Below, piece after piece: positions 4,128 to 64,000 of a stretch of DNA of 64,000 nt. The DNA comes from Crambe crambe (Eukaryota > Porifera > Demospongiae > Poecilosclerida > Crambeidae): positions 6,896,582 through 6,960,581 of the forward strand of contig OZ004583.1 of the NCBI GenBank assembly GCA_963924555.1, given 5' to 3'. The notes under the pieces were generated by a model. That model did no database searches and had not been told where the DNA came from. It worked only from the letters and a program-made list of their open reading frames with translations. The translations under genes were made by a program, and so were the position numbers. The first letter of the stretch is position 1. Each line of letters starts with the position of its first letter.

Positions 4128-7100
4128 ATGAATCCGGCCATAATGAAAGTCTCAAGCTATCATTATGCAGAAGTCAAACTTATCCTCATATCACTGCCTT
4201 TTATCTTGAGAGGATTATCAAAAGGTCAGAACAAGCTGCTAGTGCTAATAACTAATTTCTTTTATTATTGCAGCTGGTCCAATCCTAACATTGGATTCCA
4301 CCATATCCTCCCATGGAATGGTTTGTCCTCAGGCAACTTTTAACTGTAATGCTACGGACCTACCATCCACCACACTGAGGTGGTTCATCAATGATGACAT
4401 CATTGCATCCTATCCATATGATCCCAGTCACCAATTCCCACAGTCAATATCGACCCACGGAGTGACAATTTGCATACTTCAAGCATCCTTCAGTGCTTCT
4501 AGCATGGACCGTGCTAACTTTCACTCGACTCTGAGTGGTAACCTCTCAGTGATCAGAGAGATGGGAGGACACAGCATCAGTTGTGGTAGTACAGGCACTA
4601 AAAGTAACAATGTTGATCTGGACTCTATACTAATCAGAGGTATTTATAATGCATGCCTGGGTAAGAGGTTAAGCTGTAATGTCATTGAGTGTAATAGCAT
4701 GCTAATTTGTTATGTTATAAATCCTGTATTTCGTCCCTATATAGAATTATGAGAACTTGCTCTTGGGGAAGCTTTGTTAAATAATATACTTTTTGGAGTG
4801 TCCTACACCACCCCTCCCCTTTTAGCTAACTCTTGTAAGTTGTGGAAGCTTAACGGCATAGATAGGTTTGCGTGATCTTTGAAATTTTTTTCCGGTGCAT
4901 GGATCAGAAAGGACCCCTCTTTTTAAAATTCCTGGATCTGCACCTGTGCATGTATCATTAACATTGTCGTTCTTAGAATTTACGCTTCTTTCCATTAACA
5001 CTAGTAATAGTTAATATAAATTCCCTCGCAGCTCCTCCTCCTGCCCCTCCCATCTCCTGCTTCCTCTCTTTCCTCACTCAAAATCTATCGATCGGCTTCT
5101 CATGGTCTCCTTCCTTTACCTCCCAACATGACGTAGAGAAATACCATGTATCAGTCACCCCTAGCCTTCGTCACAATGAACAGGATGTTTCTCCCAGTGT
5201 GGATTATCACTCCCCTGGACTCATTTTAGGGACTACTTATTCTTTCATGGTCAGTGCCTACAACTGCATAAATCAAGAAGGGACAAGGGACACATTTATT
5301 GTCCAACCACAAGGTAATCATGCATGATGGTCATTCTGGATTAACTAGCTAAGTAGTTGCAGTTTTTTAAATGTCAGTAGTATGTACAATAATAATGATG
5401 GTACAGTTTACTGCACATAACCACAATAGCTAAACATACTGTACCTATAGTTGACTCATAACCTCAGCCCCCAAAGACTTTCTGAAATGCAAAATAGTCA
5501 ATTAATGATATCTTGTTTTTGATAAAGTAGAGATATTAACCTTGTGTGTTTGCTCATGATATAGATTATTAGGACTATCGAGGATTGTGTACAGCTACAA
5601 CTAGTAGTTGGTCAGGTCATGTGACTGATGCTCACCGAAGGCCTGACTGACGTATAATGATTGACAAATTGTGCATGCCACAAAATAAAATAATCCCAAC
5701 ATTATCAATTTCAGCATGCAGCAACTGATGTGCTAGCTACGTATTTTGTTCAGTATGCACTCTACCCAAAATTCAGTGGCGGATCTAGAAAAATTAAAAG
5801 GGAGTTTCAACTATTCCGCGTGGCGGGAAATTTTAGTCTGACCACGCCCACTTTTTTGTTTATGTTTAGAAGATCAGCTAGCTAGCCGTTTCTGGACGAC
5901 TGATCTGAATTGAATTAAGGCTCTTTGAAAAGACTCTTGAGCATGCTCAGTACAGACAGGTGGGTATTTAAATAGCGTGCGCTATAGACTGGCCCTCTAT
6001 TGCGCGCGCTAGCACAGCAAAGGGGGTTTCAATGGAAACCACAGAAACCCCTCTGAATCCGCCACTGAAATTGATATTATTTTTGGTTTGCATCATCTTG
6101 TGAAGGTAGTATACACTGCCTTGCCCGTTGATTAATACATGATCGATCCCCCTGTTCACAATAATTAGTTATTTGTATTATAATTTGATCTTACGGAGCA
6201 GAAATTCAAAATGGAGTTATTGGTATCATTCTAAAGCTCTTAATCTGCATGGTTTTTAAACACCATTTTGTTCCTGAGTTATACTTAATTGAATTTTACA
6301 TCTCATGTACATCTTTCTCAAGTACTATCACATTTTATAGCATCTTCCATACCAACTACTACTGAAATCAAAGCAAGCCTGTTTTATAACAATTCCACAA
6401 ACTTTTCACTTTCAACAAATTGGAATATCCATCAAAATGTGAGTTATCTAACTAGCTATGATTTGATCTTGCTCGTAATAATGTGTATTTTACAGAAAAA
6501 TCCTGACTCTATGAAATGCAAATATGTTGTGAACTTCACTTTAAGACTGCTGGAGAATAAAAGGAATGACACTGTTTATTTAAAGCACTTTTCTTCCAGA
6601 TCTGATATCTGTAGCAATGGTAGATGTTCTATTTCTCTTTCCTTGCTCATTTCAAATGAGAGTTACACACTGATACTCCTTGCTGACAGCATGTTCTATC
6701 GATCTCTTACACCTACCATTCCTGCAATGGTCTTTGGTAAGCATGCAGCAATCACATTGGTTAGCTATGCTCTGACATTAATTTTTTCACCCCTCCCAAC
6801 CAAATTGAATAGCTATAGCTACTCAGCTGCCTGTGATTAACATGTGGTTCTCCCTCACTAGGTGGTTCAAGTCATTATTACTTGAGGTATTATTACCTAA
6901 TGGAGAGGACAAGATGTATACCAATCGCCATATGTTCCAGTCCTATGGAACTAGATGGATGCACTATTCAGTATGGAACTGATCCATTTTATAACATGCT
7001 GAGTCAACCCATTCAGGTCCCCCTCAATTCCCCAAAAGTCTTGCCAGCAATGAAGGAGAATACAACATACTATCACCATGTGACTGTAATTGACAACTCC

Positions 7101-7853
7101 ACTACAGTTGCCTTGAGGAGCATTCATAAAGCAGGAAATTGTGAAGAATCTTCTGATGTAAATCAAATAGCTAGCTAAAGCTAGTGCATTAGTGAAATTT
7201 CATAGAGTAACTAGCTATCTTTGCTCCATGCCTGAGAAATCTATTAGCTAGTTGTAGCAAATGCATGCTTTTGATTCTTGTTGACATCTATCTTCTTTTC
7301 ATAGGGATGGAAAACTGGTTTCTTTGCAATCCTTTTCCTATCAGTATGCTTATTCGTCATCATCGTGTCGATATCACTCTTCATAAAATGTGATATCATA
7401 GTCTTAATTACAGGGGCTCCCTCTAATCTTATCCTAACCATCCTTGGGGACCCAAAAAGTGTCCTGATTGGGAGGGTTTCACTTCAGAGGTCAAGATTAG
7501 CAGGAACTCACTTTTTAAAATACTTATTTAAAGCTACTGACTTGAATTATACTCTTTCAGATAAAAAGAAACTTAAGCGAAAAAATATCACTCAGTTGAA
7601 CACTTTTGGAGTTACTGTTCCATCCCACCAGCCTTATGAAGAAGGTAGGGAAGCAGAAACCACAGGATCATCTTTACGATCTCTGAGGCCTGTGATCACG
7701 ACGACTGAGTCTAAAAGTGAGGAGCTACAAGAGAAGCACACTTATGACACTCTTCATATCCCAAACTATGAGAATAACGATATAGATGATATTAATACAA
7801 GTTTGGTCATAGATAACATGCTGTACCTGGAGCACGAATATGAATGTACATAG
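4128..7853 (+). CDS. Receptor A1: Ig-FN3-FN3-like type I membrane protein
   Basis: Predicted cell-surface receptor of 585 aa; ligand unknown. Exons: 4128-4224, 4274-4639, 5032-5313, 6341-6438, 6496-6736, 6862-7157, 7305-7389, 7561-7853, phases 1-1-1-0-1-0-1. Residues 1-32 are a signal peptide (hydrophobic core LILISLPFIL). Residues 33-154 are an Ig-like fold with Cys in TFNC, the core Trp in LRWF and the partner Cys in SISCG. Residues 155-248 are an FN3 domain (FSWSP, YSFMVSAYNC). Residues 249-361 look like a second FN3 fold with three extra Cys. Residues 362-460 are a Cys-rich module with CTIQYGTDP and TTYYHHVTV. Residues 461-488 span the membrane, ending in LFIK. The 97-residue tail has YEEG, YDTL, YENN and YLEHEY, possible SH2 or endocytic motifs. 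Intron 7 (171 bp) is open in frame. Many N-glycosylation sites. Confidence 0.85.
5774..6067. mobile_element. MITE with CAGTGGCGGAT ends in intron 3 of A1
   Basis: Inverted ends CAGTGGCGGAT and ATCCGCCACTG bound a 294-bp non-coding insert, flanked by the 5-bp direct repeat AAATT (5769-5773, 6068-6072). The matching intron of A5 has the uninterrupted site CCCAAAATTGATATT near 26774, which proves the boundaries. Orthologous copies occupy the same position in A3 (15146-15438) and A9 (52243-52538), so it inserted once before those genes separated. Confidence 0.85.
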
Positions 7854-7941
7854 CTAGCTAGTGAGCTACTTCATACACACACGTAGACGGTTACCATATT
7901 ATTAGACTCATCAGCATTGATACATAGCTAAAATTAGACTC

Positions 7942-7947
7942 AATAAA
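7942..7947 (+). promoter_or_regulatory. Candidate poly(A) signal of A1
   Basis: AATAAA lies 89 bp after the A1 stop, in a 182-bp gap before the start of B2. It is conserved after A3 (17329-17334), A5 (28673-28678) and A9 (54401-54406). Confidence 0.5.
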
Positions 7948-8034: not shown

Positions 8035-10917
8035 ATGATGAGAGGTTCCAACGATTATCATGCAGTTGAACTCATAGTCATGCTACTGCCCCTTATCTTG
8101 AAAGGAAAACTGCAAGGTACGGAAATGCTGAGCTGGTGAGGATGCAATTACTGCAGTATTAGCTAAATGCTCTGTTTTGTATGTAATGTTGCAGCTCGTC
8201 CCATTTTAGCCTTGAATACTACATCTTCCCACGGAATGGTGTGTCCTCAGGCAACTTTCAACTGTACTGCTACAGATTTACCATCCACTACACTGAGGTG
8301 GTTCATCAATGATGACATCATCGCATCCTATCCATATGATCCCAGTCACCAATTCCCACGAAATATCTCAATGTTGACCCATGGAGTGACGATTCACATA
8401 CTTCAAGCATCCTTCAGTAACTCTAGCATGGACACTGCTAACTTTAACTCAACTCTGAGTGGTAATCTCTCAGTGATCAGAGAGATGGGAGGACACAACA
8501 TCAGTTGTGGTAGTGCAGGCACTAAAAGTAACAGTGTCAATCTGGACTCTATACTAATTAGAGGTATGTACCATATAGCTAGCTGTAATGTGTTACTACA
8601 TTGAGTATTTAACATAAGGTAAAGTGGGGATATTTCAAACGGTGGGTAATTTCAAATTAATTACTGAGACTTCTGAGCTCAATGTTGGTGATCTACTATA
8701 ATAGTAGAATAATATGTCTTTCAAAATAGAGCTCATGAGCTCAAAGAGTTTTGAAAATATTTGATACTTCAGAATAGCCCAGTTTTGCCTTACTGATTTC
8801 GCAGAAGTGTAAGGCCCGGCACTAATTGTGTGAATCCTGCTATGTTGTTATGAAAACTTAATACTCTTGGGGGAGATGATACTATATTTTGGAATGCCCT
8901 ACTCTACAATAACAATGACTGTGGTTACTGTCACGTATACGTACATCTTGAAGTTTAATTTCATTATTACACCTGCTAACTATTTTTCCTCAGCCCCTCC
9001 TCCGGCCCCTCCCATCTCCTGCTTTCTCTCATTCCTCACTCAAAATCTATCGATCAGCTTCTCATGGTCTCCTTCCTTCACCTCCCAATATGACATAGAG
9101 AAATACCATGTATCAGTGAGTCCTAACGTTTGTCACAGTGAACCGGATGTTTTTCCCAACATGGATTATCACTATCACTGCCCTGGATTAATTTTAGAGA
9201 CAAATTATTCCTTCACAGTCAGTGCCTACAACTGCATAGATCAAGAAGGGACAAGGGACACGTTTATCGTCCAACCACAGGGTAATTTTAGACTGATTAA
9301 TCACAGTATGTGTGGCTTGATAGCTCCCCTATCCATTATATTATAGCTACTGTCTGATAATCTGCATAACAGATCATTAAAAACTTAAGGTAATACATTT
9401 TTTATATGTAGCATCTTCCATACCCACTCCTAGTGAAATCAGAACAAATTTATTCTATTATGATAACAATTCCACAAATTTTTCACTTTTAATGAATTGG
9501 AATCTCAATCAAAATGTGAGTTGTGAGCTAATAGACTGAGCTGGATATACCTTATGATTATATAATATTATGTTTACAGCCCAATTTAATGAGATGTGAA
9601 TATGTTGCGAACTTCACTTTAAGACTACTGGAGAACAAAAGGAATGACACTCTATACTCAAAGCACTTTTCTTCCAGATCTGATATATGTAGCAATGGTA
9701 GATGTTCTATTTCTCTTTCCTTGCTCATTTCAAATGAAAGTTACATACTGATACTCCTTGCTGATAGCACGTTCCATCGGTCTCCTACACCTACCATTCC
9801 TGTAATGGTCTTTGGTAAGTACAATTATGAGCTAAAACTGTAGCTGTAACCCAAGTGTGTGTGGGTTAGCTCTACCTTCTATAATCACCCCCTTCCCAAC
9901 TTCCCCTTACTATAGGTGGTTCAAGTCATTATTACTTGACGTATTATTACCTAATGGAGAGGACAAGATGTATACCGATCGCCATATGTTCCAGTCCTAT
10001 GGAACTAGATGGATGCACAATTCAGTATGGAACTAATCCATTTTATAACATGCTGAGCCAACCTATTCAGGCCCACCTCAATTCCCCAAAAGTCTTACCA
10101 GCAATGAAGAGGAATACAACGTACTATCATCATGTGACTGTAATTGACAACTCCACTACAGTTGCCTTGAGGAGTGTTCACAAAACAGAAAACTGTGAAG
10201 AATCTTCTGACGTAAATCATTATTACGTAGCATGTGGATTAGTAAGCATATTTTCATACAATGTAGAGGAATTATCTTTGCTCCATGCCTGAGAAATCTA
10301 TTAGCTAGCTGTAGCAAATGTGCATGCTTTTGATTCTTGTTAACAGCTATCTTCTTTTCATAGGGATGGAAAACTGGTTTCTTCGTAATCCTTTTCCTAT
10401 CAGTGTGCTTATTCGTCATCGTCATGTCGATATCACTCTTCATAAAATGTGATGTCATAGTCTTAATTACAGGGGCTCCCTCTAATCTTATCCTAACCAT
10501 CCTTGGGGACCCAATAAGTGTCCTGATTGGGAGGGTCTCACTTCAGAGGTCAAGATTAGCAGGAACTCACTTTTTAAATACTAATAATTTACTGACTTGA
10601 ATTATACTCTTTCAGATAAAAAGAAACTTAAGCGAAAAAATACCACTCAGTTGAACACTTTTGGAATGACTGTTCCATCCCACCAGCCTTATGAAGAAGG
10701 TAGGGAAGCAGAAACCATGGGTTCATCTTTACAATCTCTGAGCCTGGTCCCAGTGATCACGACGACTGAGTCTAAAAGTGAGGAGCTGCAAGAGAAGCAC
10801 ATTTACGACACTCTTCAGATCCCAAACTATGAGAATAACGACATAGATGATAATAGCTTGAGTTTGGCCATAGATAACATACTGTACATGGAGCACGAAT
10901 ATGAATGTACTAGCTAA
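8035..10917 (+). CDS. Receptor B2: Ig-FN3-FN3-like membrane protein
   Basis: Exons: 8035-8116, 8195-8563, 8994-9281, 9412-9515, 9580-9814, 9916-10211, 10364-10448, 10616-10917; 586 aa. The first ATG of an ATGATG pair is used; the signal core is ELIVMLLPLIL. B genes differ from A genes in exon 4 (FYYDNNSTNF instead of FYNNSTNF), in a shorter exon 5 beginning PNLMRCEY, and in the tail end (AIDNILYMEHEYECTS), which runs three residues past the usual ECT. FN3 has a two-residue insertion (DYHYHCPG). The Ig loop between QFPRN and THG reads ISML. Intron 7 (167 bp) has stops, so it must be spliced. The gene starts 182 bp after the A1 stop. Confidence 0.85.
8617..8790. mobile_element. Probable TA-flanked MITE in intron 2 of B genes
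   Basis: AGGTAAAGTGGGG at the left and the degenerate inverted counterpart CCCAGTTTTGCCT at the right are each bordered by TA. The same block lies in intron 2 of B4 (about 20480-20668), B6 (about 29360-29530) and B10 (about 55090-55250), where the right end reads CCCCACTTTGCCTT and matches better. It is old and shared by the whole B lineage. Confidence 0.45.
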
Positions 10918-13407: not shown

Positions 13408-16400
13408 ATGAATCCGGCCGTAATGAAAGTCTCAAGCTATCATTATGCAGAAGTCAAACTCATCCTCATATCACTGCCTTTTATCTTGAGAGGATTAACA
13501 CAAGGTCAGAACAAGCTCCTAGTGCTAATAGCTAGCTAATTTCTTTTATTATTGCAGCTCGTCCAATCCTAACATTGGATTCCACCATATCTTCCCATGG
13601 AATGGTTTGTCCTCAGGCAACTTTCAACTGTAATGCTACAGACTTGCCATCTACCACACTGAGGTGGTTCATCAACGATGACATCATTGCATCCTATCCA
13701 TATGATCCCAATCACCAATTCCCACGAAATATCCAGTCAATGTCGACCCATGGAGTGATAATTCGCATACTTCAAGCATACTTCAGTGCCTCTAGCATGG
13801 ACCGTGCTAGCTTTCACTCAACTCTGAGTGGTAATCTCTCAGTCATCAGAGAGATGGGAGGACACAGCATCAGTTGTGGTAGTACAGGCACTAAAAGTAA
13901 CAATGTTGATCTGGACTCTATACTAATTAGAGGTATGTATAATGCATGCCTGGGTAAGAGGTTAAGCTGTAATGTCATCGAGTATAACAGCATGCTGATT
14001 TTAGCTAATTTATTATGACTGTTATAAATCCTGTATTTCGTCCCTATAAAGAATTGTGAGAACTTGCTCTTGGAGAAGCTTTGTTAGCTACAGTGATACA
14101 ATAATAAGATAAATAATGTATTTTTTGGAGTGTCCTATGCCACCCCTCCCCTTTTAGCTAACTATCACAAGTTGCGGAAGCTTAACGGCACAGATAGGCT
14201 TGCGTGGTCTTTGAAATTTTTTTTCCAGTGCATGGATCAGAAAGGACCCCCCTTTTAAAATTCCTATAGATCTGCACCTGTGCATGTATCATTAACATTG
14301 TCGTTCTTAGAATTTACGCTTCTTTCCATTGACACTAGTAATAGTTAATATAAATTCCCTCTCAGCTCCTCCTCCTGCCCCTCTCATCTCCTGCTTCCTC
14401 TCATTCCTCACTCAAAATCTATCGATCGGCTTCTCATGGTCTCCTTCCTTCACCTCCCAACATGACGTAGAGAATTACCATGTATCAGTTAGCCCTAGCC
14501 TTCGTCACAGTGAACAGGATGTTTCTCCCAGTGTGGATTATCACTCCCCTGGACTCATTTTAGGGACTACTTATTCTTTCATGGTCAGTGCCTACAACTG
14601 CAGAAATCAGGAAGGGACAAGGGACACATATATTGTCCAACCACAAGGTAATCACGCATGATGGTCATTCTGGATTAACTAGCTATGTAGCTAAATAGCT
14701 AGCCACTGCTAAACTATAGCTATGTCACAGTTTTTTAATATCAGCAGTATGTATAATAATAATGATGGTATAGTTTACTGCATGTAGCTATATCCACAAT
14801 AGCTAAACATACTGTACCTATAGTTGACTCATAACCTCAGCCCCCAAAGACTTTCTGAAATGCAAAATAGTCAATTAATGATATCTTGTTTTTGATAAAG
14901 TAGAGATATTCTTGTGTGTTTGCTCATGATATAGATTATTAAGGATTGTGTACAGCTACAACTAGTAGTTGGTCAGGTCATGTGACTGATGCTCACCGAA
15001 GGCCAGATTTTTCACTGACGTATAATGATTGACAAATTGTGCATGCCACAAAATAAAATAATCCCAACATTATATATCAATTTCAGCATGCAGCAACTGA
15101 TGTGCTAGCTACGTATTTTGTTCAGTATGCACTCTACCCAAAATTCAGTGGCAGATCTAGAAAAATTAAAAGGGAGTTTCAACTATTCCGCGTGGCGGGA
15201 AATTTTAGTCTGACCACGCCCACTTTTTTGTTTATGTTTAGAAGATCAGCTAGCTAGCCGTTTCTGGACGACTGATCTGAATTGAATTAAGGCTCTTTGA
15301 AAAGACTCTGAGCATGCTCAGTACAGACAGGTGGGTATTTAAATAGCGTGTGCTATAGACTGGCCCTCTATTGCGCGCACTAGCACAGCAAAGGGGGTTT
15401 CAATGGAAACCACAGAAACCCCTCTAAATCCGCCACTGAAATTGATATTATTATTGGTTTGCATCATCTTGTGAAGGTAGTAGCTATACACTGCCTTGCC
15501 CGTTGATTAATACATGATCGATCCCCCTGTTCACAGTAATTAGTTATTTGTATTATAATTTTGATCTTACGGAGCAGAAATTCAAAATGGAGTTATTGGT
15601 ATCATTCTAAAGCTCTTAATCTGCATGGTTTTTAAATAAAATTTGTACACCATTTTGTTCCTGAGTTATACTTAATTGAATTTTACATCTCATGTACATC
15701 TTTCTCAAGTACTATCACATTTTATAGCATCTTCCATACCAACTACTACTGAAATCAAAGCAAGCCTGTTTTATAACAATTCCACAAACTTTTCACTTTC
15801 AATAAATTGGAATATCCATCAAAATGTGAGTTATCTAACTAGCTATGATTTGATCTTGCTCGTAATAATGTGTATTTTACAGAAAAATCCTGACTCTATG
15901 AAATGCAAATATGTTGTGAACTTCACTTTAAGACTGCTGGAGAATAAAAGGAATGACACTGTTTATTTAAAGCACTTTTCTTCCAGATCTGATATCTGTA
16001 GCAATGGTAGATGTTCTATTTCTCTTTCCTTGCTCATTTCAAATGAGAGTTACACACTGATACTCCTTGCTGATAGCATGTTCTATCGATCTGTTACACC
16101 TACCATTCCTGCGATGGTCTTTGGTAAGCATGCAGCAATCACATTGGTTAGCTATGCTCTGACATTAACTTTTTCACCCTTCCCAACCAAATTGAATAGC
16201 TATAGCTACTCAGCTGCCTGTGATTAACATGTGGTTCTCCCTCACTAGGTGGTTCAAGTCATTATTACTTGATGTATTATTACCTAATGGAGAGGACAAG
16301 ATGTATACCAATCGCCATATGTTCCAGTCCTATGGAACTAGATGGATGCACTATTCAGTATGGAACTGATCCATTTTATAACATGCTGAGTCAACCCATT

Positions 16401-17240
16401 CAGGTCCCCCTCAATTCCCCAAAAGTCTTGCCAGCAATGAAGAGGAATACAACATACTATCACCATGTGACTGTAATTGACAACTCCACTACAGTTGCCT
16501 TGAGGAGCATTCATAAAGCAGGAAATTGTGAAGAATCTTCTGATGTAAATCAAATAGCTAGCTAAAGCTAGTGCATTAGTGAAATTTCATAGAGTAACTA
16601 GCTATCTTTGCTCCATGCCTGAGAAATCTATTAGCTAGTTGTAGCAAATGCATGCTTTTGATTCTTGTTGACATCTATCTTCTTTTCATAGGGATGGAAA
16701 ACTGGTTTCTTTGCAATCCTTTTCCTATCAGTATGCTTATTCGTCATCATCGTGTCGATATCACTCTTCATAAAATGTGATGTCATAATCTTAATTACAG
16801 GGGCTCCCTCTAATCTTATCCTAACCATCCTTGGGGACCCAAAAAGTGTCCTGATTGGGAGGGTTTCACTTCAGAGGTCAAGATTAGCAGGAACTCACTT
16901 TTTTAAATACTTATTTAAAGCTACTGACTTGAATTATACTCTTTCAGATAAAAAGAAACTTAAGCGAAAAAATATCACTCAGTTGAACACTTTTGGAGTT
17001 ACTGTTCCATCCCACCAGCCTTATGAAGAAGGTAGGGAAGCAGAAACCACAGGATCATCTTTACGATCTCTGAGGCCTGTGATCACAACGACTGAGTCTA
17101 AAAGTGAGGAGCTACAAGAGAAGCACACTTATGACACTCTTCATATCCCAAACTATGAGAATAACGATATAGATGATATTAATACAAGTTTGGTCATAGA
17201 TAACATGCTGTACCTGGAGCACGAATATGAATGTACATAG
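13408..17240 (+). CDS. Receptor A3: Ig-FN3-FN3-like membrane protein
   Basis: Exons: 13408-13504, 13558-13932, 14366-14647, 15728-15825, 15883-16123, 16249-16544, 16692-16776, 16948-17240; 588 aa. Very close to A1 in exons 4-8. The Ig exon is 9 bp longer than in A1, giving QFPRNIQSMSTHG in place of the shorter A1 loop. Its signal peptide uses MNPAVMK, like A1 and A5 only. Start choice: a second in-frame ATG six codons on (MKVSS) is also possible. Intron 3 holds the CAGTGGCGG MITE. Intron 7 is 171 bp with no stop in frame, as in A1, so a longer isoform with 57 extra residues is possible. Confidence 0.85.
15146..15438. mobile_element. CAGTGGCGG-family MITE in intron 3 of A3
   Basis: Same insertion point, AAATT duplication and orientation as the copy in A1; the left end has one change (CAGTGGCAGAT). 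It reached this place by gene duplication, not by a new jump. Confidence 0.85.
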
Positions 17241-17423: not shown

Positions 17424-20400
17424 ATGATGAGAGGTTCCAACGATTATCATGCAGTTGAACTTATAGTCATGCTACTGCCCCTTATCTTGAAAGGAAAACT
17501 GCAAGGTATGGAAATGCTGAGCTGGTGGAGATGTAGTTACTGCAGCATAAAATGCTCTGTTTTGTTGCAGCTCGTCCTATTTTAGTCTTGAATACTATAT
17601 CTTCTCATGGAATGGTTTGTCCTCAGGCAACTTTCAACTGTAGTGCTACAGATTTACCATCCACCACACTGAGGTGGTTCATCAACGATGACATCATTGC
17701 AGCCTATCCATATGATCCCAGAGCTAGTGACCAATTCCCACAAAATATCCAGTCAATGTCCACCTATGGAGTGACAATTCGCATACTTGAAGCATCCTTA
17801 AATGCCTCTAGCATGGACCGTGCTAGCTTTCACTCAACTCTGAGTGGTAATCTCTCAGTGATCAGAGAGATGGGAGGACACAACATCAGTTGTGGTAGTA
17901 CAGGGACTAAAAGTAACAGTGTTGATCTGGACTCAATACTAATTAGAGGTATGTATAATGTGCAATAATAGCATAGCTATAATGTATAATTGAGTATTTA
18001 GACAGGCTATAGGAAAAGGGGGCACTTCACGCAAAAATTTAAAATGGAGTTATTAATACCACGCTATAGCTCATTATCTTAGAATTTCACCGATACTACG
18101 CTTGAGGCTAAATCTTAAACCACCGCGGAGCTATAAGCGCTTGAAGTGCATCACCTCAGAGACTAAGATTGAATAAGCGTTTTGCAATACAGTCTAATCG
18201 CCAGCGTGCATCCGGTTGTATTTACGCAATACAATTTCATTTACATGCTCATCACGCGGAATATACGGACACTGGGATACTAGGAAATTTTTTATGACCT
18301 TGTATCTCTGGATTCTGTCAACATAAATCAACAAGACTTGGGCGGCAGTTTTAGGCCGGCACAGATGACCTTTAGTGTAAATTTGGTACACGTAGCTATT
18401 ACCACTAGAGAGTTATCAAGCCATGTCTCAATTTCAAGTGTATTGTTGGATTATAGGGCCATTTCCTGTAAACAAGTTATTTCATTTTGATACCAGGTAC
18501 ATTCTATAGAGGAATACTTACTGCATGTATATATCCAACAATCATTTCTGTTCAAACATAATAACACAGTATAAATGACACCACATCTTTGCCACAAATA
18601 AATCACAATACACACTATAATGACTACAGTCTTGACAGCTTTGTTTCTTCTTCAGTGCCTGCAGTGATCAATGACAAGTAAAGTACATCGGAGTAAACAT
18701 GGCCCCTGCTACATTTGTGTCATAAGGAGAGCGTGCAGTATACATCCAGAGAATATGGAACAAATGTTAATTTTGGACCCAATGTCAAGCTTGCTATAAC
18801 CGAGTAGCAGGAAATGTAAATTTTCACCCAGGACCGAAGGCCCAAACCAGTAACTACTGGTATATTAAACTGCAATGCAAAACAGGGTCTACAGGCATAC
18901 TAACATAGCCACACCTTCTAACAGGGAAATAACTGGTGGCGTTCACTGTGAATAACATAGTAAACACACTTTCAAGGAACACTACATTCAGGTTTACAGT
19001 ACCTTGCAACTTGCAAGCTCATAGGGAGTGAATGTGTATCAGATCCAACACAGAGAACAGTACTCTAAATATTGCCCATCACCGACATATCAACCCTTAT
19101 TTGAGCCAGATCAGTAATGAACAGTCTACCCTATCAAAGTAGACATGAAAATTATTTGAGACAGATGAAAAATTCTAACTTGAGAATGATTCTAACACTA
19201 CTATGATTATATTAAACATACACTTATATGTACAAACATGGGCCATTTGCTGTAAAATGTAAGTATCAACCTAAAGTATGGACATACATGTTAGAATACA
19301 TACTGACTATATGTTTGTAGTAAGATAACTTCTGTTCATCTCTCTGAAGGGCCCTTAAAAGCCATCTAAACTTCCATGACTCTCAACCACCATGGCTATT
19401 CTATGCTAAAAAGAGTTACTGTTTACTTACATAGCAGATGGTAAGGTAGAATAAGCCTATCACCATCTGTTGAGAATAAACCTACAACCTATAAGGTTTC
19501 TAGTCTGATGAAAAGCCGAGCTCAAGAAATGTACCTCAGCGGCCATTTTCTCAAAAATTATGACGTCATCATGTAATACAAAAAGTATTGTAAATATGTA
19601 CGCTGGCGATTAGACTGAATAAACGGCGTCTAAACATTGAACTTCCGGTCAATACCCAATGCTCCGTAAATCCTTACGTAAGTCCGTATAACGCGGTGAC
19701 ATCATTTAATTTATCTCACCTCGTGTAGCAGCTGTGTGGAGAAGAAGTAGACTTAGCTTTACTACGTTGTTATCTTTGAGCGCTTGGGTTATCTGAGGCA
19801 TGCTAGATATGGAACAAGTTCTGAATAATGATCAGGTAAAGTTTGGGTAGATAGATGTTTGTACATCAGTAGTTTTAATAGTACTTGGAAGTTTTATGAT
19901 CCTATCTCTGCTGTATTGGTTGATTCCTGTGGAAGTGGTGTTAGCCTGAGTTGGAATCTAGACACTGGTAGGATCTGTGCTGTGTTTGACTACTGTCTTG
20001 GGGTTGAAGGAGACATAGAATTCATCCAGCACCTCCATATCTGGATCTTCTGACATATGAAGTTGGATGGCTCCTACCACAACCTCTTCCTATCTGTAGC
20101 TAGCTAAATATCTGTGTAGCTACTTTGTATTCAGTAGAAATCATCAATATGAATTTTTATTGTTGTGTGGGGAATTTCCCTTATTTCCGCGCATTACGCT
20201 CATACATCCTCCGTAATTGAAGATTGAAATTTGGGCACGTAGGATGTGAAATAAGTTCCGGGTGAGTAGCTCACTTCAACTCGAGCGCTTGCCTACTTCA
20301 GCCTTCCCACTTCCTGAAATTTGGCAGGAAGTTAGATAAAGGACTGAAGATACTGTGGAGGCAAGGAAAAAGAAGTGGATAAAAATAATTTTTTTACCTA

Positions 20401-27700: not shown

Positions 27701-28568
27701 CTGATCCATTTTATAACATGCTGAGTCAACCCATTCAGGTTCCCCTCAATTCCCCAAAAGTCTTGCCAGCAATGAAGGAGAATACAACATACTATCACCA
27801 TGTGACTGTAATTGACAACTCCACTACAGTTGCCTTGAGGAGCATTCATAAAGCAGGAAATTGTGAAGAATCTTCTGATGTAAATCAAATAGCTAGCTAA
27901 AGCTAGTGCATTAGTGAAATTTCATAGAGTAACTAGCTATCTTTGCTCCATGCCTGAGAAATCTATTAGCTAGCTGTAGCAAATGCAAGCTTTTAATTCT
28001 TGTTGACATCTATCTTCTTTTCATAGGGATGGAAAACTGGTTTCTTTGCAATCCTTTTCCTATCAGTATGCTTATTCGTCATCATCGTGTCGATATCACT
28101 CTTCATAAAATGTGATGTCATAGTCTTAATTACAGGGGTCCCTCTAATCTTATCCTAACCATCTTTAGGGACCCAAAAAGTGTCCTGATTGGGAGGGTCT
28201 CACTTCAGAGGTCAAGATTAGCAGGAACTCACTTTTTTAAATACTTATTCAAAGCTACTGACTTGAATTATACTCTTTCAGATAAAAAGAAACTTAAGCG
28301 AAAAAATATCACTCAGTTGAACACTTTTGGAGTTACTGTTCCATCCCACCAGCCTTATGAAGAAGGTAGGGAAGCAGAAACCACGGGATCATCCTTACGA
28401 TCTCTGAGGCCTGTGATCACGACGACTGAGTCTAAAAGTGAGGAGCTACAAGAGAAGCACACTTATGACATGCTTCATATCCCAAACTATGAGAATAACG
28501 ATATAGATGATATTAGCACAAGTATAGATAACACGCTGTACCTGGAGCACGAATATGAATGTACATAG
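24742..28568 (+). CDS. Receptor A5: Ig-FN3-FN3-like membrane protein
   Basis: Exons: 24742-24838, 24892-25266, 25686-25967, 27063-27160, 27218-27458, 27584-27879, 28027-28111, 28282-28568; 586 aa. The exon 4 donor is GTGAAT where sister genes have GTGAGT. Intron 3 lacks the CAGTGGCGG MITE (empty site kept) but has a private 305-bp insert. Intron 7 is 170 bp because of a one-base loss (GGGGTCCCTC), so here read-through would shift frame, unlike A1 and A3. The tail is two residues shorter (DISTSIDNTLYLEHEYECT). Confidence 0.85.
26220..26524. mobile_element. 305-bp insertion in intron 3 of A5
   Basis: Relative to A1 (GATAAAGTAGAGATATT) A5 has 305 extra bases between two copies of AAGTAG (26214-26219, 26525-26530), a 6-bp target duplication. 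The ends (TGTTTACGGTGAG and GTGAGTGAAC) show at most a weak inverted match. No coding content; type undetermined. Confidence 0.6.
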
Positions 28569-30622: not shown

Positions 30623-30759
30623 TACTCTTGGGGGAGATAATACAATATTGGATTTACATAAATAAGAATATCCTTTTGGAATGGCCTACTCTACAATAAC
30701 AATGTGGTTACTGTCGCGTATACATCTTGAAGTTTAATTTCATTATTACACCAGCTAAC

Positions 30760-50569: not shown

Positions 50570-53500
50570 ATGATGAGAACTTCCAAGAGTTACCATGTAG
50601 TTAAGCTCATAGTCATGTTACTCTCTCTTGTCTTGAAAGAAAAAATGCAAGGTAAGGGAATATTAAGATAGCTACATGCCATTCATGCTCTGTTTTGTAT
50701 AATTTTGCAGCTCGTCCTATTTTAGCCTTGAATACCATACCTTCTCATGGAATGGTTTGTCCTCAGGCAACATTCAACTGTAATGCTACAGACTTACCAT
50801 CCACCACATTGAGGTGGTTCATCAATGATGACATCATCGCGTCCTATCCATATGATCCCAGTCACCAATTCCCATATGATTTCACCCCCTCCCAGTCAAT
50901 GTGGACCCATGAAGTGACTATTCGCATACTTCAAGCATCCTTCAGTGCTTCTAGCATGGACCGTGCTAACTTTCACTCAACTCTGAGTGGTAATCTCTCA
51001 ATGATCAGAGAGATGGGAGGGCACAGCGTCAGTTGTGGTAGTGCAGGCACTAGAAGTAACAGTGTCAATCTGGACTCAATACTAATTAGAAGTATGTATA
51101 ATGTGCAAAAAAGCGGACCTTGGTATGAGATTAAGCTATAATGTCATTGATCGAATTGAGTAGCTATAATGTAGCATGCTGATTTTAATTAGCTATTCTA
51201 AAAAAGTTAGTTATATAAATTCTGTATTTTGTCACTATAAAGAACTATGAGAACCTGATCATTTTTGTTCTTGGGGGAAGCTTTATTGCAGTGAGATTTA
51301 CATAAATAATTATCCTTTTAGTGTATCCTACCCCATGCATGCATGTATTATTAACATTGTGGTTACTCGCATAAAGAATTGGGTCTGGCTAGCTACATGT
51401 ATAGCTAGTGGTTACTCTCGCTTAGAATTTCCACTTCTTTTTCATTCATGCTAATAATAATTGCATGGCTTTTTCTTCTCAGCTCTTCCTCCTGCCCCTC
51501 CCATCTCCTGCTTCCTCTCATTCCTCACTCAAAATCTATCAATCAGCTTCTCATGGTCTCCCTCCTTTACCTCCCAACATGACATAGAGAGATACCATGT
51601 ATCAATGAGTCCTAGCCTTCATCACAGTGAACAGGATGTTTCTCCCATTGTGGACTATCACTGCCCTGGACTCATTTTAGGGACTACTTATTCTTTTACA
51701 GTCAGTGCCTATAACTGCAGAAATCAAGAAGGGGCAAGGGACACATTTATTGTCCAACCACAAGGTAATCATGCATGATGGTCATTCTGGATTAACTAGC
51801 TACAATGTTGCTAAATAACTAGCCACTATAGCTAGCTATATGTTGCAGTTTTTTAGATATCAGCAGTATGTATAATAATAATGATGGTATGGTTTACTGC
51901 ACATAACCACAATAGATAAACATACTGTACCTATAGTCGACTCATAACCTCAGCCCCCAAAGGCTTTCTGAATGCAAAATAGTCAATTAATGATATCTTG
52001 TTTTGAGATATTAACCTTGTGTGTTTGCTCATGATATGGATTATTAGCTACTATCGAGGATTGTGTACAGCTACAACTAGTAGTTGGTCAGGTCATGTGA
52101 CTGATGTTCACCGAAGGCCTGATTTTTCGCTGACGTATAATGATTGACAAACTGTGCATGCCACAAAATAATCCCAATTTCAGCATGCAGCAACTGATGT
52201 GCTAGCTACGTATTTTGTTCAGTATGCACTCTACCCAAAATTCAGTGGCGGATCTAGAAAAATTAAAAGGGAGTTTCAACTATTCCGTGCGGCGGGAAAT
52301 TTTAGTCTGACCACGCCCACTTTTTTGTTTATGTTTAGAAGATCAGCTAGCTAGCCGTTTCTGGACGACTGATCTGAATTGAATTAAGGCTCTTTGAAAA
52401 GACTCTGAGCATGCTCAGTACAGACAGGTGGGTATTTAAATAGCGTGCGCTATAGACTGGCCCTCTATTGCGCGCGCTAGCGCAGCAAAGACCGGGGTTT
52501 CAATGGAAACCACAGAAACCCCTCTAAATCCGCCACTGAAATTGATATTATTATTGGTTTGCATCATCTTGTGAAGGTAGTATACACTGCCTTGCCCGTT
52601 GATTAATACATGATCGATCCCCCTGTTCACAATAATTAGTTATTTGTATTATAATTTTGATCTTACGGAGCAGAAATTCAAAATGGAGTTATTGGTATCA
52701 TTCTAAAGCTCTTAATCTGCATGGTTTTTAAACACCATTTTGTTCCTGAGTTATACTTAATTGAATTTTACGTCTCATGTACATCAAGTACTATCACATT
52801 TTATAGCATCTTCCATACCAACTACTACTGAAATCAAAGCAAGCCTGTTTTATAACAATTCCACAAACTTTTCACTTTCAACAAATTGGAATATCCATCA
52901 AAATGTGAGTTATCTAACTAGCTATGATTTGATCTTGCTCGTAATAATGTGTATTTTACAGAAAAATCCTGACTCTATGAAATGCAAATATGTTGTGAAC
53001 TTCACTTTAAGACTGCTGGAGAATAAAAGGAATGACACTGTTTATTTAAAGCACTTTTCTTCCAGATCTGATATCTGTAGCAATGGTAGATGTTCTATTT
53101 CTCTTTCCTTGCTCATTTCAAATGAGAGTTACACACTGATACTCCTTGCTGACAGCATGTTCTATCGATCTGTTACACCTACCATTCCTGCGATGGTCTT
53201 TGGTAAGCATGCAGCAATCACATTGGTTAGCTATGCTCTGACATTAATTTTTTCACCCCTCCCAACCAAATTGAATAGCTATAGCTACTCAGCTGCCTGT
53301 GATTAACATGTGGTTCTCCCTCACTAGGTGGTTCAAGTCATTATTACTTGAGGTATTATTACCTAATGGAGAGGACAAGATGTATACCAATCGCCATTTG
53401 TTCCAGTCCTATGGAACTAGATGGATGCACTATTCAGTATGGAACTGATCCATTTTATAACATGCTGAGTCAACCCATTCAGGTCCCCCTCAATTCCCCA

Positions 53501-54181
53501 AAAGTCTTGCCAGCAATGAAGAAGAATACAACATACTATCACCATGTGACTGTAATTGACAACTCCACTACAGTTGCCTTGAGGAGCATTCATAAAGCAG
53601 GAAATTGTGAAAAATCTTCTGATGTAAATCAAATAGCTAGCTAAAGCTAGTGCATTAGTGAAATTTCATAGAGTAACTAGCTATCTTTGCTCCATGCCTG
53701 AGAAATCTATTAGCTAGTTGTAGCAAATGCTTCTTGTTGACATCTATCTTCTTTTCATAGGGATGGAAAACTGGTTTCTTTGCAATCCTTTTCCTATCAG
53801 TATGCTTATTCGTCATCATCGTGTCGATATCACTCTTCATAAAATGTGATGTCATAGTCTTAATTACAGGGGTCCCTCTAATCTTATCCTAACCATCTTT
53901 GGGGACCCAAAAAGTGTCCTGATTGGGAGGGTCTCACTTCAGAGGTCAAGATTAGCAGGAACTCACTTTTTTAAATACTTATTCAAAGCTACTACTTTAA
54001 TTATACTCTTTCAGATAAAAAGAAACTTAAGCGAAAAAATATCACTCAGTTGAACACTTTTGGAGTTACTGTTCCATCCCACCAGCCTTATGAAGAAGGT
54101 AGGGAAGCAGAAACCACGGGATCATCTTTACGATCTCTGAGGCCTGTGATCACAACAACTGAGTCTAAAAGTGAAAAGTGA
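50570..54181 (+). CDS. Receptor A9: mosaic copy with truncated tail
   Basis: Exons: 50570-50651, 50711-51091, 51483-51764, 52807-52904, 52962-53202, 53328-53623, 53761-53845, 54015-54181; 543 aa. The signal peptide exon (MMRTSKSYHVVKL) and its GTAAGG donor resemble the D genes, the FN3 exon resembles C7 (QEGARDTF), and exons 4-8 are A-type: a recombinant. The Ig loop is the longest of the array, QFPYDFTPSQSMWTHE. Exon 2 ends AGA-A rather than AGA-G, making Thr at the Ig-FN3 junction. In the tail a 7-bp duplication (GTGAAAA) brings a TGA at 54179-54181, removing the YDTL, YENN and YLEHEY sites; more indels follow in the dead 3' part. Confidence 0.8.
52243..52538. mobile_element. CAGTGGCGG-family MITE in intron 3 of A9
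   Basis: Third orthologous copy at the same AAATT site as in A1 and A3, 296 bp. Confidence 0.85.
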
Positions 54182-54306
54182 GGAGCCACAAGAGTATGGC
54201 AGCTTCATAGCTATCCCAAACTATGAGAATAACAATATAGCTAGATGATATTAGCACAAGTATAGATAACACGCTGTACCTGGAGCACGAATATGAATGT
54301 ACATAG
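54182..54306 (+). pseudogene. Dead remainder of the A9 tail exon
   Basis: Sequence after the premature stop still aligns to the normal tail (CCCAAACTATGAGAATAAC, CTGGAGCACGAATATGAATG) up to the ancestral stop at 54304-54306, but with several frame-changing indels, so it is decaying freely. Confidence 0.75.
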
Positions 54307-54502: not shown

Positions 54503-57348
54503 ATGATGAGAGGTTCCAACGATTATCATGCAGTTGAACTCATAGTCATGCTACTGCCCCTTATCTTGAAAGGAAAACTGCAAGGTATGGAAATGCTGAG
54601 CTGGTGAAGATGTAATTACTGCAGCATAAAAATGCTCTGTTTTGTATAATTTTGTAGCTCATCCTATTTTAGTCTTGAATACTATATCTTCCCATGGAAT
54701 GGTTTGTCCTCAGGCAATTTTCAACTGTAATGCTACAGATTTACCATCCACCACACTGAGGTGGTTCATCAATGACGACATCATCGCATCCTATCCATAT
54801 GATCCTCATCACCAATTCCCACGAAATATCCAGTCAATGTCGACCCATGGAGTGACGATTCGCATATTTCAAGCATCCTTCAGTGACTCTAGCATGGACA
54901 CTGCTAATTTTCACTCAACTCTGAGTGGTAATCTCTCAGTGATCAGAGAGATGGGAGGGCACAGCATCAGTTGTGGTAGTACAGGCACTAAAAGTAACAG
55001 TGTCAATCTGGACTCAATACTAATTAGAAGTATGTATAATGTGCAATAATAGCATAGCTATAATGTGTAATTGAGTATTTTAACATATAGGGTATTTCGA
55101 ACGGCGGGTAATTCCATATTCAAATTACTGAGACTTCTGAGCTCAATGTTGGAGGATATAATCGTAGAATATATCTTTCTAAATAGAGCTCATGAGCTTG
55201 AGGAGTTTTGAAAATAGTTGACACTTTGGAATAGCCCCACTTTGCCTTGCTGATTTCACAGAAGTGTAAGGCCTGGCATTAATTGTGTGAATCCTGCTAT
55301 GTTGTTATGAAAACTTAATACTCTTGGGAAGATGATACAATATTGGATTTACATAAATAAAAATATCCTTTTGGAATGCCCTATTCTACAATAACAATGT
55401 GGTTACTGTCACGTATACATCTTGAAGTTTAATTTCACCAGCTAACTAATCATTATTATTTTCCCTCAGCCCCTCCTCCGGCCCCTCCCATCTCCTGCTT
55501 TCTCTCATTCCTCACTCAAAATCTATCTATCAGCTTCTCATGGTCACCTTCCTTCACCTCCCAACATGACATAGAGAAATACCATGTATCAGTGAGTCCT
55601 AGCCTTCATCACAGCAAACAGGATGTCTTTCCCAGTGTGGATTATCACTGCCCTGGATTACTTTTAGAGACAACTTATTCCTTCACAGTCAGCGCCTACA
55701 ACTGCAGAAATCAAGAAGGGACAAGGGACACATTTATTGTCCAACCACAGGGTAATAATAATTATTAATCACAGTATGTGTGGCTTGACAGCTCCCCTAT
55801 CCATAGCTACTATAGCTATCTGATAAGCTGCATAACCAGATCATTAAAAATTTAAGGCAATGCATTTTTTATATGTAGCATCTTCCGTACCCAGTCCTAG
55901 TGAAATCAGAACAAGTTTATTCTATTATGATAACAATTCCACAAGCTTTTCACTTTTAATGAATTGGAATCTCAATCAAAATGTGAGTTGGCTAATAGAC
56001 TGAGCTGCTTGTAATAATTATCATGCAGATTGTATATGTTTACAACAGAATCCCAATTTAAAGAGATGTGAATATGTTGTGAACTTCACTTTAAGACTAC
56101 TGGAGAATAAAAGGAATGACACTCTATACTCAAAGCACTTTTCTTCCAGATCTGACATCTGTAGCAATGGTAGATGTTCTATTTCTCTTTCCTTGCTCAT
56201 TTCAAATGAGAGTTACACACTGATACTCCTTGCTGATAACACGTTCCATCGGTCTCTTACACCTACCATTCCTGTAATGGTCTTTGGTAAGTAGCTAAAC
56301 TCTAGCTACATATAACCTGTGTGGGTTAGCTCTACCTTCTATAATCACCCTCTTCCCAACTTCCACACACTATAGGTGGTTCAAGTCATTATTATTTGAC
56401 GTATTATTACCTAATGGAGAGGACAAGATGTATACCGATCGCCATATGTTCCAGTCCTATGGAACTAGATGGATGCACTATTCAGTATGGAACTGATCCA
56501 TTTTATAACATGCTGAGTCAACCCATTCAGGCTCACCTTAATTCCCCGAAAATCTTGCCAGCAATGAAGAGGAATACAACATACTATCACCATGTGACTG
56601 TAATTGACAACTCCACTACAGTTGCCTTGAGGAGTGTTCACAAAACAGAAAATTGTGAAGAATCTGCTTATGTAAATCATATAGTTTGTGCATTTCATAG
56701 AGCAATTATCTTTGCTCCATGCCTGAGAAATCTATTAGCTAGCTGTAGCAGATGTGCATGCTTTGATTCTTGTTGACTAGCTAGCTATCTTCTTTTTATA
56801 GGGATGGAAAACTGGTTTCTTCGTAATCCTTTTCCTATCAGTGTGCTTATTCGTCTTCATCGTGTCAATATCACTCTTCATAAAATGTGATGTCATAGTC
56901 TTAATTACAGGGGCTCCCTCTAATTCGATCCTAACCATCCTTGGGACCAATAAGTGTCCAGATTGGGAAGGTCTCACTTCAGAGGTCAAGATTAGCAGGA
57001 ACTCACTTTTTAAAATAATACTAATAATTTACTGACTTGAATTATACTCTTTCAGATAAAAAGAAACTTAACCGAAACAATATCACTCAGTCGAACACTT
57101 TTGGAGTGACTGTTCCATCCCACCAGCCTTATGAAGAAGGTAGGGAAGCAGAAACCATGGGTTCGTCTTTACGATCTCTGAGGCCTGTGATCACGACGAC
57201 TGAGTCTAAAAGTGAGGAGTTACAAGAGAAGCACACTTATGACACTCTTCAGATCCCAAACTATGAGAATAACGATATAGATGATAATAGCTTGAGCAGA
57301 GCCGCCGGAAGCAATTTTGAGGTGGTCAGGCTGAATATGCGCGCGTAA
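54503..57348 (+). CDS. Receptor B10: tail end rewritten by a MITE
   Basis: Exons: 54503-54584, 54658-55029, 55470-55751, 55879-55982, 56049-56286, 56376-56671, 56802-56886, 57056-57348; 583 aa. The ectodomain is intact and closest to pseudogene B6. Exon 2 ends AGA-A as in A9. The tail keeps YEEG, YDTL and YENN, but a 220-bp MITE lies inside the last exon, so after DDNSLS the protein ends RAAGSNFEVVRLNMRA instead of the LYLEHEYECT end. The ancestral end survives at 57524-57575 as non-coding sequence. Confidence 0.83.
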
Positions 57349-57516
57349 GCGCGCAGAAAAATTTTACTGACCACGCCCACTTTATAACCACACCCGCCTA
57401 TATTAACGGTTGAACACGTGGGCAATTTTTAAATGTTGACGACCATTACCAATGTTGTTCGATCGACGAGTGGTCCGGTTTTGGCCTGACCAGCCGGAGC
57501 GGTTCCGGCGGCCCTG
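57297..57516. mobile_element. MITE inserted in the B10 tail exon
   Basis: Inverted ends CAGAGCCGCCGGAA and TTCCGGCGGCCCTG (one mismatch) with GCTTGAG repeated on both sides (57290-57296, 57517-57523). B6 has the uninterrupted AATAGCTTGAGTTTGGCC. Contains GACCACGCCCACTTT, a string also present in the CAGTGGCGG MITEs. It supplies the last 16 codons and stop of B10. Confidence 0.85.
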
Positions 57517-57523
57517 GCTTGAG

Positions 57524-57785
57524 TTTGGCCATAGATAACATGCTGTACATGGAGCACGAATATGAATGTACATAGCTAGCAAGCTAGCAATATGTTGTTT
57601 TTTATACACACATATTATTATACACTCATTTATGGTTAACTACTATTAGGCTCATCAGCATTGATAAAAATATAGAAAACTCATAGAGTTCAATGCCCTG
57701 CTGTAATAAGCCTGTACAGTGTCTGGAAGCGTAATTACTAGGAGGGGGAGTCAGTTTTACATTATAGCTAGCTTCACCCATGCAT
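57524..57785. other. Former B10 tail end and 3' flank
   Basis: 57524-57575 is the displaced end of the tail exon; the rest is the conserved B 3' flank leading into the second retrotransposon relic. Confidence 0.6.
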
Positions 57786-62800: not shown

Positions 62801-63008
62801 TACATCCCACCATCCTTGTATGCAAAGCATAGGTTCATCTTTATCTCCAAGGCACGTGACTACGACTGAGTCTAAAACTGTGGAGTTACAAGAAAGGCAC
62901 ATTTATAACACTCCTCGAATTATACATTATGAGAACAATATCAGCAAAAGAAAGCCCGAGTTGGCCATAGATAACATAGCACACTATAATCTGAAGCACA
63001 ATACATAG
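59875..63008 (+). CDS. Receptor C11: Ig-FN3-FN3-like membrane protein
   Basis: Exons: 59875-59956, 60025-60396, 60687-60959, 61096-61199, 61269-61503, 61752-62047, 62490-62574, 62743-63008; 570 aa. The Ig domain is almost identical to C7. FN3 has a 9-bp in-frame loss in the middle (DVIDYHSLG) and lacks the Cys found at this place in most B and C copies. The exon 2 donor is GTGTGT. The tail matches C7 up to KRKPELAI, then ends DNIAHYNLKHNT, which looks like the older form because it keeps the DN(M/I) string of the A and B tails; C7 has a frame change there. Intron 6 has a private hAT-like insert. Confidence 0.84.
62097..62415. mobile_element. hAT-like MITE in intron 6 of C11
   Basis: Ends TAGCCTCGGCCCCAGGC and GCCTGGGGATGAGGTA are inverted and match the family at 3220-3609. 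The direct repeat CCCCCCTGTG flanks it; its true length (8-10 bp) is blurred by the C run. C7 lacks it. Confidence 0.75.
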
Positions 63009-63176
63009 TGAGCTAGCGCTACATACACACTGTCATCTGCACAATTTATTTTAATTTTTTGTAGAAAAAATACATTCGCGCGCGCTAATTCTAGACCCCA
63101 CCTAGTACCTACGGCCCAGCCAGGTGATGCATCGATGATCTGCAGTACAGTTAGTGCAATGCCAATAACTGATGGA

Positions 63177-64000
63177 ATGATGAGAAGTTCCAAGAGTTAT
63201 CATATAGTTAAGCTTATAGTCATGCTACTCTTCCTTGACTTGAAAGAAAAAATACAAGGTAAGGAGCTAGCTATATAGTTACATGCCATCCAGTGGTGAG
63301 CATGCGATTAGCTACTGCAGTATAAAAATGCTCTGTTTTGTATATTTTGCAGCTCGTCCTATTTTAGTCTTGAATACTATATCTTCTCATGGAATGGTTT
63401 GTCCTCAGGCAACTTTCAACTGTACTGCTATAGACTTGCCATCCACCACACTGAGGTGGTTCATCAATGATGACATCATTGCATCCTATCCATATGATCC
63501 CAGTCACCAATTCCCACGAGATATCCAGTCAATGTCGACCCATGGAGTGACAATTCGCATACTTCAAGCATCCTTCAGTGCTTCTAGCATGGACACTGCT
63601 AACTTTCACTCGACTCTGAGTGGTAATCTATCAGTGATCAGAGAGATGGGAGGACACAGCATTAGTTGTGGTAGTACAGGCACTAAAAGTAATGCTGTCA
63701 ACTTGGATTCAGTACATATTAGAGGTATAGGTATAATAGCTAGCTATATAACTTTCATGGAATCTGATAAAGTTCTTCCTAGCACTAGTGTAGCTAATTA
63801 GCAACCTACATTGGGCCACAAAATTGCATGCCAATGGATATCTCTCTCACGATATAACAGAGTTGTGCATTATCTATTATAGTTGTATTTCCCCACAGTC
63901 CCTCCCCCTGCACCTTCCATCTCCTGTTTCCTTTCTTTCGTCACTCGGAATTTAATAATATCCTTCTCATGGTCTCCTGGATTCACCTCCCGACATGATG
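63177..64000 (+). CDS. Receptor D12, 5' part only
   Basis: Exons in the window: 63177-63258, 63353-63724, 63899 to the edge. Signal peptide MMRSSKSYHIVKLIVMLL, then the Ig exon, then the start of the FN3 exon (SPPAPSISCFLSFVTRN), which follows D8 and not A-C. Upstream ATG at 63172 runs into a stop at once, so 63177 is the start. The gene begins 169 bp after the C11 stop and continues off the window. Confidence 0.8.

Follow-up and report, generated by a model that had tools for sequence, protein, structure and literature searches.

The window, a 64,000-nucleotide stretch of the Crambe crambe genome (G000:C5:6896582-6960581), holds a tandem array of twelve plus-strand genes for putative immunoglobulin (Ig)-type receptors, arranged in the order A-B-A-B-A-B-C-D-A-B-C-D. 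Gene models were built by exon searches and then splice sites, with boundaries set semi-manually by homology to A1. All twelve genes, predicted originally as tandem eight-exon genes, could be modelled with eight exons each and AG/GT at every junction (GT-AG introns). The identical intron phases also claimed for them (1,1,1,0,1,0,1) hold in 11 of the 12, the exception being B3 through its frameshifts. Nine genes are uninterrupted (A1, B1, A2, B2, A3, C1, D1, C2, and D2) and three are damaged (B3, A4, and B4). A search for structured RNA or tRNA content gave nothing at threshold. The features, with TM denoting the transmembrane exon, are as follows.

A1, 4143..7853, plus strand: intact; exons 4143-4224, 4274-4639 (Ig), 5032-5313 (FN3), 6341-6438 and 6496-6736 (FN3-like), 6862-7157 (FN3), 7305-7389 (TM), 7561-7853 (tyrosine tail).
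B1, 8035..10917, plus strand: intact, stop codon read; exons 8035-8116, 8195-8563, 8994-9281, 9412-9515, 9580-9814, 9916-10211, 10364-10448, 10616-10917.
A2, 13423..17240, plus strand: intact; exons 13423-13504, 13558-13932, 14366-14647, 15728-15825, 15883-16123, 16249-16544, 16692-16776, 16948-17240.
B2, 17424..22802, plus strand: intact; exons 17424-17505, 17571-17948, 20894-21175, 21305-21408, 21465-21699, 21801-22096, 22249-22333, 22501-22802.
A3, 24757..28568, plus strand: intact; exons 24757-24838, 24892-25266, 25686-25967, 27063-27160, 27218-27458, 27584-27879, 28027-28111, 28282-28568.
B3, 28780..34779, plus strand: likely pseudogene, with frameshifts in exons 3, 5, and 6; exons at 28780, 28935, 32920, 33331, 33511, 33824, 34233, 34487.
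B3-C1 spacer, 34721..37100, no strand assigned: reverse-transcriptase relic on the minus strand (open reading frames 35528-36385 and 36465-37049); the second block holds a 94% copy of the spacer.
C1, 37101..40159, plus strand: open frame, final residues unlike C2; exons 37101-37182, 37251-37622, 37922-38203, 38348-38451, 38521-38755, 39275-39570, 39659-39743, 39909-40159.
D1, 40334..43244, plus strand: intact, tail with NIYAEI and terminal VSYKEL; exons 40334-40409, 40496-40867, 41129-41410, 41460-41563, 41641-41881, 42190-42494, 42623-42713, 42976-43244.
A4, 50570..54306, plus strand: chimera, exons 1-2 C/D-like and exons 4-8 A-like, with an exon 8 frameshift that shortens the tail; exons at 50570, 50711, 51483, 52807, 52962, 53328, 53761, 54015.
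B4, 54503..57575, plus strand: open through the YENN motif, late insertion in exon 8; exons at 54503, 54658, 55470, 55879, 56049, 56376, 56802, 57056.
C2, 59875..63008, plus strand: intact; exons 59875-59956, 60025-60396, 60687-60959, 61096-61199, 61269-61503, 61752-62047, 62490-62574, 62743-63008.
D2, 63177..64000, plus strand: intact, running on past the window end to 66024 (modelled with flanking locus L014); in-window exons 63177-63258, 63353-63724, 63899 onward.

The original prediction gave these genes a signal-Ig-FN3-FN3-like-Cys module-TM-tyrosine tail layout, which we retain except for the Cys module. Exon 1 is signal-like and exons 4 and 5 together are FN3-like, both judged by eye, and exon 3 is FN3 by Pfam (fn3, 27.3 bits against a cut-off of 25). 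For exon 6, the supposed Cys module, an FN3 fold is predicted, because its AlphaFold2 model (predicted local distance difference test score, pLDDT, 85.3) retrieved almost exclusively FN3 domains among its top Foldseek matches (best E 8e-4); we therefore set aside a sushi-like or separate Cys module for this exon. For the Ig exon (exon 2), the top Foldseek matches were mostly Ig-type domains, none of them significant (best E 0.016), and the Pfam Ig_3 match fell below cut-off. In A1, D1, and one protein of the three-pass type described below, fn3 was the only Pfam domain above cut-off, with no sushi and no Calx-beta, and full-length A1 had no significant match among PDB sequences (best E 0.56). 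The tails carry the tyrosine motifs YDTL and YENN in A and B, and YAEI plus terminal VSYKEL in D; VEYDEI occurs in a neighboring gene, F. Searches with the A-type and D-type tails, though none with the C tail by itself, matched nothing beyond this plus-strand array except for a D-type tail in a degenerate D copy near 81 kb.

Genome-wide searches covered the 143-Mb assembly in 119 contigs, and the counts they give for family exons are lower bounds. Relatives of the window genes lie almost only on the same contig, C5, within about 1.5 Mb (6.64-8.15 Mb). The Ig exon gave at least 77 matches with one query (73 on C5, 2 on C9, and 2 on C21) and at least 117 with another (114 on C5 and 3 on C9); exon 3 gave at least 159 (best 150 of 183 candidates scored) and exon 6 at least 103 (100 on C5 and 3 on C9). 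A third TM exon (TM3), which had no match within the window array, gave at least 102 matches at E ≤ 0.1 (100 on C5 and 2 on C9), 94 of them at E ≤ 0.001. Greedy grouping of the listed C5 matches for the Ig exon, exon 3, and exon 6 yielded 125 groups, 101 of them with at least two exon types. Since some groups are surely fragments, we estimate that the complex comprises about 100 related receptor loci rather than 125. In trees of exon 3 and exon 6, the window genes cluster together (support 100/100 and 100/98), and the degenerate D copy at 81 kb falls with them. An array at 8.09-8.15 Mb is preceded by 208 kb without listed matches. Outlying relatives lie on C9 (2.72, 2.95, and 3.04 Mb) and C21 (3.15 Mb), and a C9 gene in locus L035 is close to a C5 gene in L034 (Ig exon nonsynonymous divergence, dN, 0.02 and synonymous divergence, dS, 0.09). 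Two sets of match pairs with equal or near-equal scores occur on C5, at 7.555-7.610 versus 7.647-7.694 Mb (offset about 82-92 kb) and at 7.219-7.225 versus 7.297-7.302 Mb (77 kb), which suggests recent segmental duplications or uncollapsed haplotypes.

Among 21 non-window genes with an exon 6 in the fetched DNA (the degenerate D copy, at 80.9 kb, was left aside), 15 have all three TM exons, the L035 gene has two, and three (F1, F2, and H144) cross the membrane once and end in a tyrosine tail; the window genes are therefore not the only one-pass members. One three-pass gene could be spliced in full except for exon 1, giving nine open exons (572 codons and a stop), and its exons 2-5 have the same phases as the window genes. 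At the level of predicted genes, then, the complex shows a shared ectodomain exon design on two chassis, three-pass and one-pass with a tyrosine tail. Outside the window (coordinates continue those of the window, negative upstream), a block comprising the D region, E (three-pass), and F (one-pass) is duplicated (65608-75729 versus 81580-92000, 78-89%), so both chassis were copied together. A minus-strand open frame of 1340 codons (103116-107135) adjoins receptor genes, and at 108-137 kb, also on the minus strand, three-pass genes are followed by open frames rich in YxxL-type repeats (EYSAL, HYLPL).

Downstream of TM3, 7 of the 15 three-pass genes have a pair of exons that match FYVE when joined, the first half lying within about 2 kb of TM3. 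All five joined pairs passed the profile cut-off (E 5e-13 to 5e-8), with the junction residue read from the DNA for E1 and inferred for the other four. Splice sites are consistent, in phase 0, in E1 and E2, and an LVYADI motif follows further downstream in E1. The FYVE profile has 40 matches genome-wide, 6 of them on C5 at 6.70-6.86 Mb. Two FYVE halves with the signature RHHCRACG, at about -113.7 and -17.0 kb, lie many kilobases from the nearest receptor TM exons; they may belong to separate genes or to multi-FYVE tails.

Comparison of related genes exon by exon indicates that heads and chassis can part company. Across the 5.9 kb compared, the gene at -68.7 kb matches the one at -41.4 kb with 95-96% identity, up to a point 37-39 bp 5' of exon 3. 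The two carry Ig exons of different types, with saturated dS; the corresponding values are 0.18 for exon 3 and 0-0.05 for exons 5, 6, and TM1-3. A weaker form of this contrast is seen among the genes at 117, 124, and 136 kb, where dS is 1.3-2.0 for the Ig exon and 0.04-0.41 for exons 5, 6, and the TM exons (0 for TM3 of G124-G136). The gene at -4 kb and L033c have ectodomain exons that are close (dS 0.12-0.32) and TM exons that are not (1.45, 1.58, and saturated), indicating separate histories for front and back halves. Finally, the divergent neighbors G136 (three-pass) and H144 (one-pass) share an Ig exon (97 of 104 residues alike, dS 0.06) in a 385-bp tract, beyond which exon 3 has dS 0.92 and exon 6 is saturated. 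We conclude from these exon comparisons that Ig heads move between the predicted genes as single exons.

Within the window, self-comparison bears out the proposed AB amplification, with repeats at 4050-8611 versus 13330-18000 (93.0%) and 8615-12835 versus 20476-24646 (95.1%). For the proposed ABCD block duplication, a B-C-D repeat is evident at an offset of 22.5-22.8 kb (pieces of 32890-43421 versus 55440-66194, 85-94%), and A4 is a chimera with a C/D-like front on an A-type back. Its exons 1-2, introns included, are about 80% like C1/C2, with the nearest exon 1 by dN, among the pairs compared, being that of D2, and its resemblance to A genes begins at about 51.48 kb. A non-LTR (long terminal repeat) relic had been claimed between B and C in both blocks; we find a reverse-transcriptase relic between B3 and C1 (RVT_1, E 5e-9 and 3e-9), within a 4.2-kb stretch that has a 94% copy between B4 and C2. 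The pogo relics claimed after B2 and B4 were not recovered; a partial test with Pfam found no transposase match in four selected open-reading-frame strings (22.8-24.7 kb, downstream of B2; B2 intron 2; B3 intron 2; and 57.3-58.2 kb). Between D1 and A4, the minus strand at 44410-45708 carries another element, distinct from the relic between B and C, with reverse transcriptase and RNase H (RVT_1 1e-33, RT_RNaseH_2 2e-17).

In all 12 comparisons of D genes with A, B, and C genes, exons 2 and 6 differ less at synonymous sites (0.16-0.25) than exons 3-5 do (0.55-0.61; Fisher p 5e-9 to 6e-13, the pairs not being independent). For C1 and D1, high identity is confined to segments over exons 2 and 6, exon-free segments giving 0.39-0.54 (120-bp resolution). 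Our reading is that exons 2 and 6 have undergone exon-sized gene conversion. Across ten window pairs, every combined domain class for which dS exceeds 0 has dN/dS below 1, and three classes have dS 0. Single small exons at or above 1 are few; examples are exon 7 of C1-C2 (dN/dS 0.081/0.056), exon 6 of S34-S35, and TM3 of up61-up86. Taken together, recent duplications, damaged copies, a chimeric gene, exon-sized gene conversion, and a complex of about 100 loci support the original description of a rapidly turning-over Ig-type array. Judged from DNA comparison, the complex as a whole evolves by tandem and block duplication, damage to copies, single-exon gene conversion, and exchange of Ig heads.

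Two further explanations of the array can be considered here. Uncollapsed haplotypes stacked as tandem copies would make it an assembly artefact, and some distant segments do repeat with equal match scores at 77-92 kb offsets. We regard this as highly improbable for the window, where aligned DNA of the copies differs by 5-15%, spacers are distinct, the mosaic order lies on one contig, and within-type dS is 0.036-0.149 (A1-A2, A1-A3, A2-A3, B1-B2, B2-B4, C1-C2, and D1-D2). That the array is mostly decaying, with few working genes, is suggested by damage to 3 of 12 window genes and by the degenerate D copy at 81 kb, but with the other 9 of 12 uninterrupted and dN/dS below 1 overall we consider it very unlikely.

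Similar heads on different signalling chassis within one cluster are known from the vertebrate paired receptors KIR and LILR, which the C5 complex resembles in this respect and from which it differs in its three-pass chassis and FN3 stalk. In sponges, aggregation factors are Calx-beta proteins. With the best 150 of 1021 candidates scored, Calx-beta has at least 151 matches in this genome, in clusters on C10, C3, and C13, which fits a demosponge; these are likewise clustered recognition candidates, but their domains differ from those of the C5 receptors, and since the matches listed lie on contigs other than C5 we set aside an aggregation-factor locus here. To our knowledge, the receptor side of sponge self/non-self recognition has not been established.

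The closest parallel is with the Fester family and the Fester co-receptors (FcoR) of Botryllus schlosseri. According to the passages cited, three-pass receptors with short tails are there paired with one-pass tyrosine-tail co-receptors at the fuhc locus, the three TM domains predicted for fester match its exons 8-10, and uncle fester has back exons in common with fester and an unrelated front (PMC12065747; PMC3549757). The C5 complex has the same clustering of receptors, here putatively Ig-type, the same combination of three-pass and one-pass tyrosine chassis in one cluster (15 three-pass and 3 one-pass among the 21 non-window genes, and 12 one-pass in the array), and, as in fester, one exon per TM. 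The comparison with Fester made in the original prediction is thus stronger than could have been seen from the window, as most fetched relatives have three TM exons. Unlike Fester/FcoR, the C5 genes carry a putative Ig and three FN3-type domains, with no sushi found in the Pfam scans, 7 of 15 three-pass relatives have downstream FYVE exons, and there are about 100 loci. Because sushi domains were not found and the likeness is one of design, we would class the complex as probably working like Fester/FcoR and not as a member of that family. Hydractinia Alr, also named in the original prediction, is a cluster of Ig-superfamily receptors with many pseudogenes in which Alr1 and Alr2 are single-pass (passages of PMC11067881) and the ectodomains are V-set/I-set-like (passages of PMC11999971). 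The window genes are single-pass as well, but the C5 genes combine one putative Ig domain with a stalk of FN3 domains and have the three-pass form in most of the relatives fetched, so they do not fit the Alr pattern. In the titles, abstract openings, and passages of open-licence papers on sponges, Hydractinia, and Botryllus that we consulted, none describes this complex.

We consider it probable that the twelve genes encode single-pass recognition receptors, forming a young branch of an approximately 100-locus complex on one chromosome that would serve paired recognition, either immune or allorecognition. The Ig head would bind ligand on a stalk of FN3 domains, and phosphorylated tail tyrosines would recruit SH2 proteins. 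Matched heads on three-pass and one-pass receptors could bind the same ligand with different outputs or make the two partner receptors, as proposed for Botryllus Fester/FcoR, and head swapping would be a source of new specificities. Several observations weigh against this account. In all 10 window pairs the Ig exon has a dN/dS of 0.00-0.59, so the heads give no sign of diversifying selection among the window paralogues, a comparison that has no bearing on alleles. One head type is common to all window genes. Matched heads are clear in a single pair, G136-H144; those of E1-F1 are partly matched (84 of 106 amino acids, dS 0.13), and those of E2-F2 are no closer than F1-F2 (dS 0.34 versus 0.36). 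The AlphaFold2 model of the Ig exon is all-beta but weak (pLDDT 75.8), and the A and B tails do not fit the strict pattern of an immunoreceptor tyrosine-based inhibitory motif. In addition, the gene models are predicted from DNA, above all the three-pass tails, and the C-terminal half could be assigned in 19 of the 21 fetched relatives.

What such receptors recognize is where the alternatives diverge. Sensing of microbes or symbionts, by an innate repertoire expanded through host-microbe conflict, is a serious possibility, although we would put it somewhat below even; it accords with the repertoire size and the birth-and-death pattern, and passages in two papers report that microbial challenge alters the expression of Ig and FN3 genes in sponges and that certain sponge genomes contain more of them (PMC6208332, PMC4772301), but it has no need of matched heads on two chassis. 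An allorecognition complex, in which the receptors decide fusion or rejection and the heads bind self or polymorphic partners, would account for those matched heads as well as for the large cluster with turnover and head swapping. Its logic would be close to that of Fester/FcoR and its clustering to that of Alr, as described in parts of PMC12065747 and PMC11067881. Against it stand the constraint on the Ig exon between window paralogues and a sponge graft transcriptome study whose main text, in the parts consulted, names no such receptors and lacks the words "receptor", "immunoglobulin", and "fibronectin" (PMC5450542); we hold it to be possible but rather doubtful. Receptors for adhesion or developmental signalling that take no part in recognition, and that expanded to provide dosage or diversity among cell types, would fit both an Ig-FN3 architecture common among adhesion receptors and the Ig exon constraint. 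We think this unlikely, because it would be unusual for such genes to number about 100 loci and to show pseudogenes, chimeras, and exchange of heads.

Our preferred reading of the window genes as recognition receptors therefore leaves self/non-self function as a hypothesis, with a ligand that may be self, foreign tissue, or microbial. Its most specific form, which we offer tentatively and with the odds against it, is a Fester/FcoR-like paired allorecognition complex in a sponge, in which interchangeable Ig heads would be carried on two chassis across about 100 loci, neighbors would be kept same-headed by exon-sized gene conversion, and one ligand would give two outputs. If so, FYVE-tailed three-pass members would couple recognition to endosomal membranes, an unusual connection for a three-pass receptor. 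If the design is homologous to Fester and not convergent, it would date to early animals. Exchange of single Ig-head exons between three-pass and one-pass receptors is the sort of mechanism that germline-encoded recognition would need to create and pair specificities, and the complex provides a mapped, sequence-defined candidate locus for sponge recognition.

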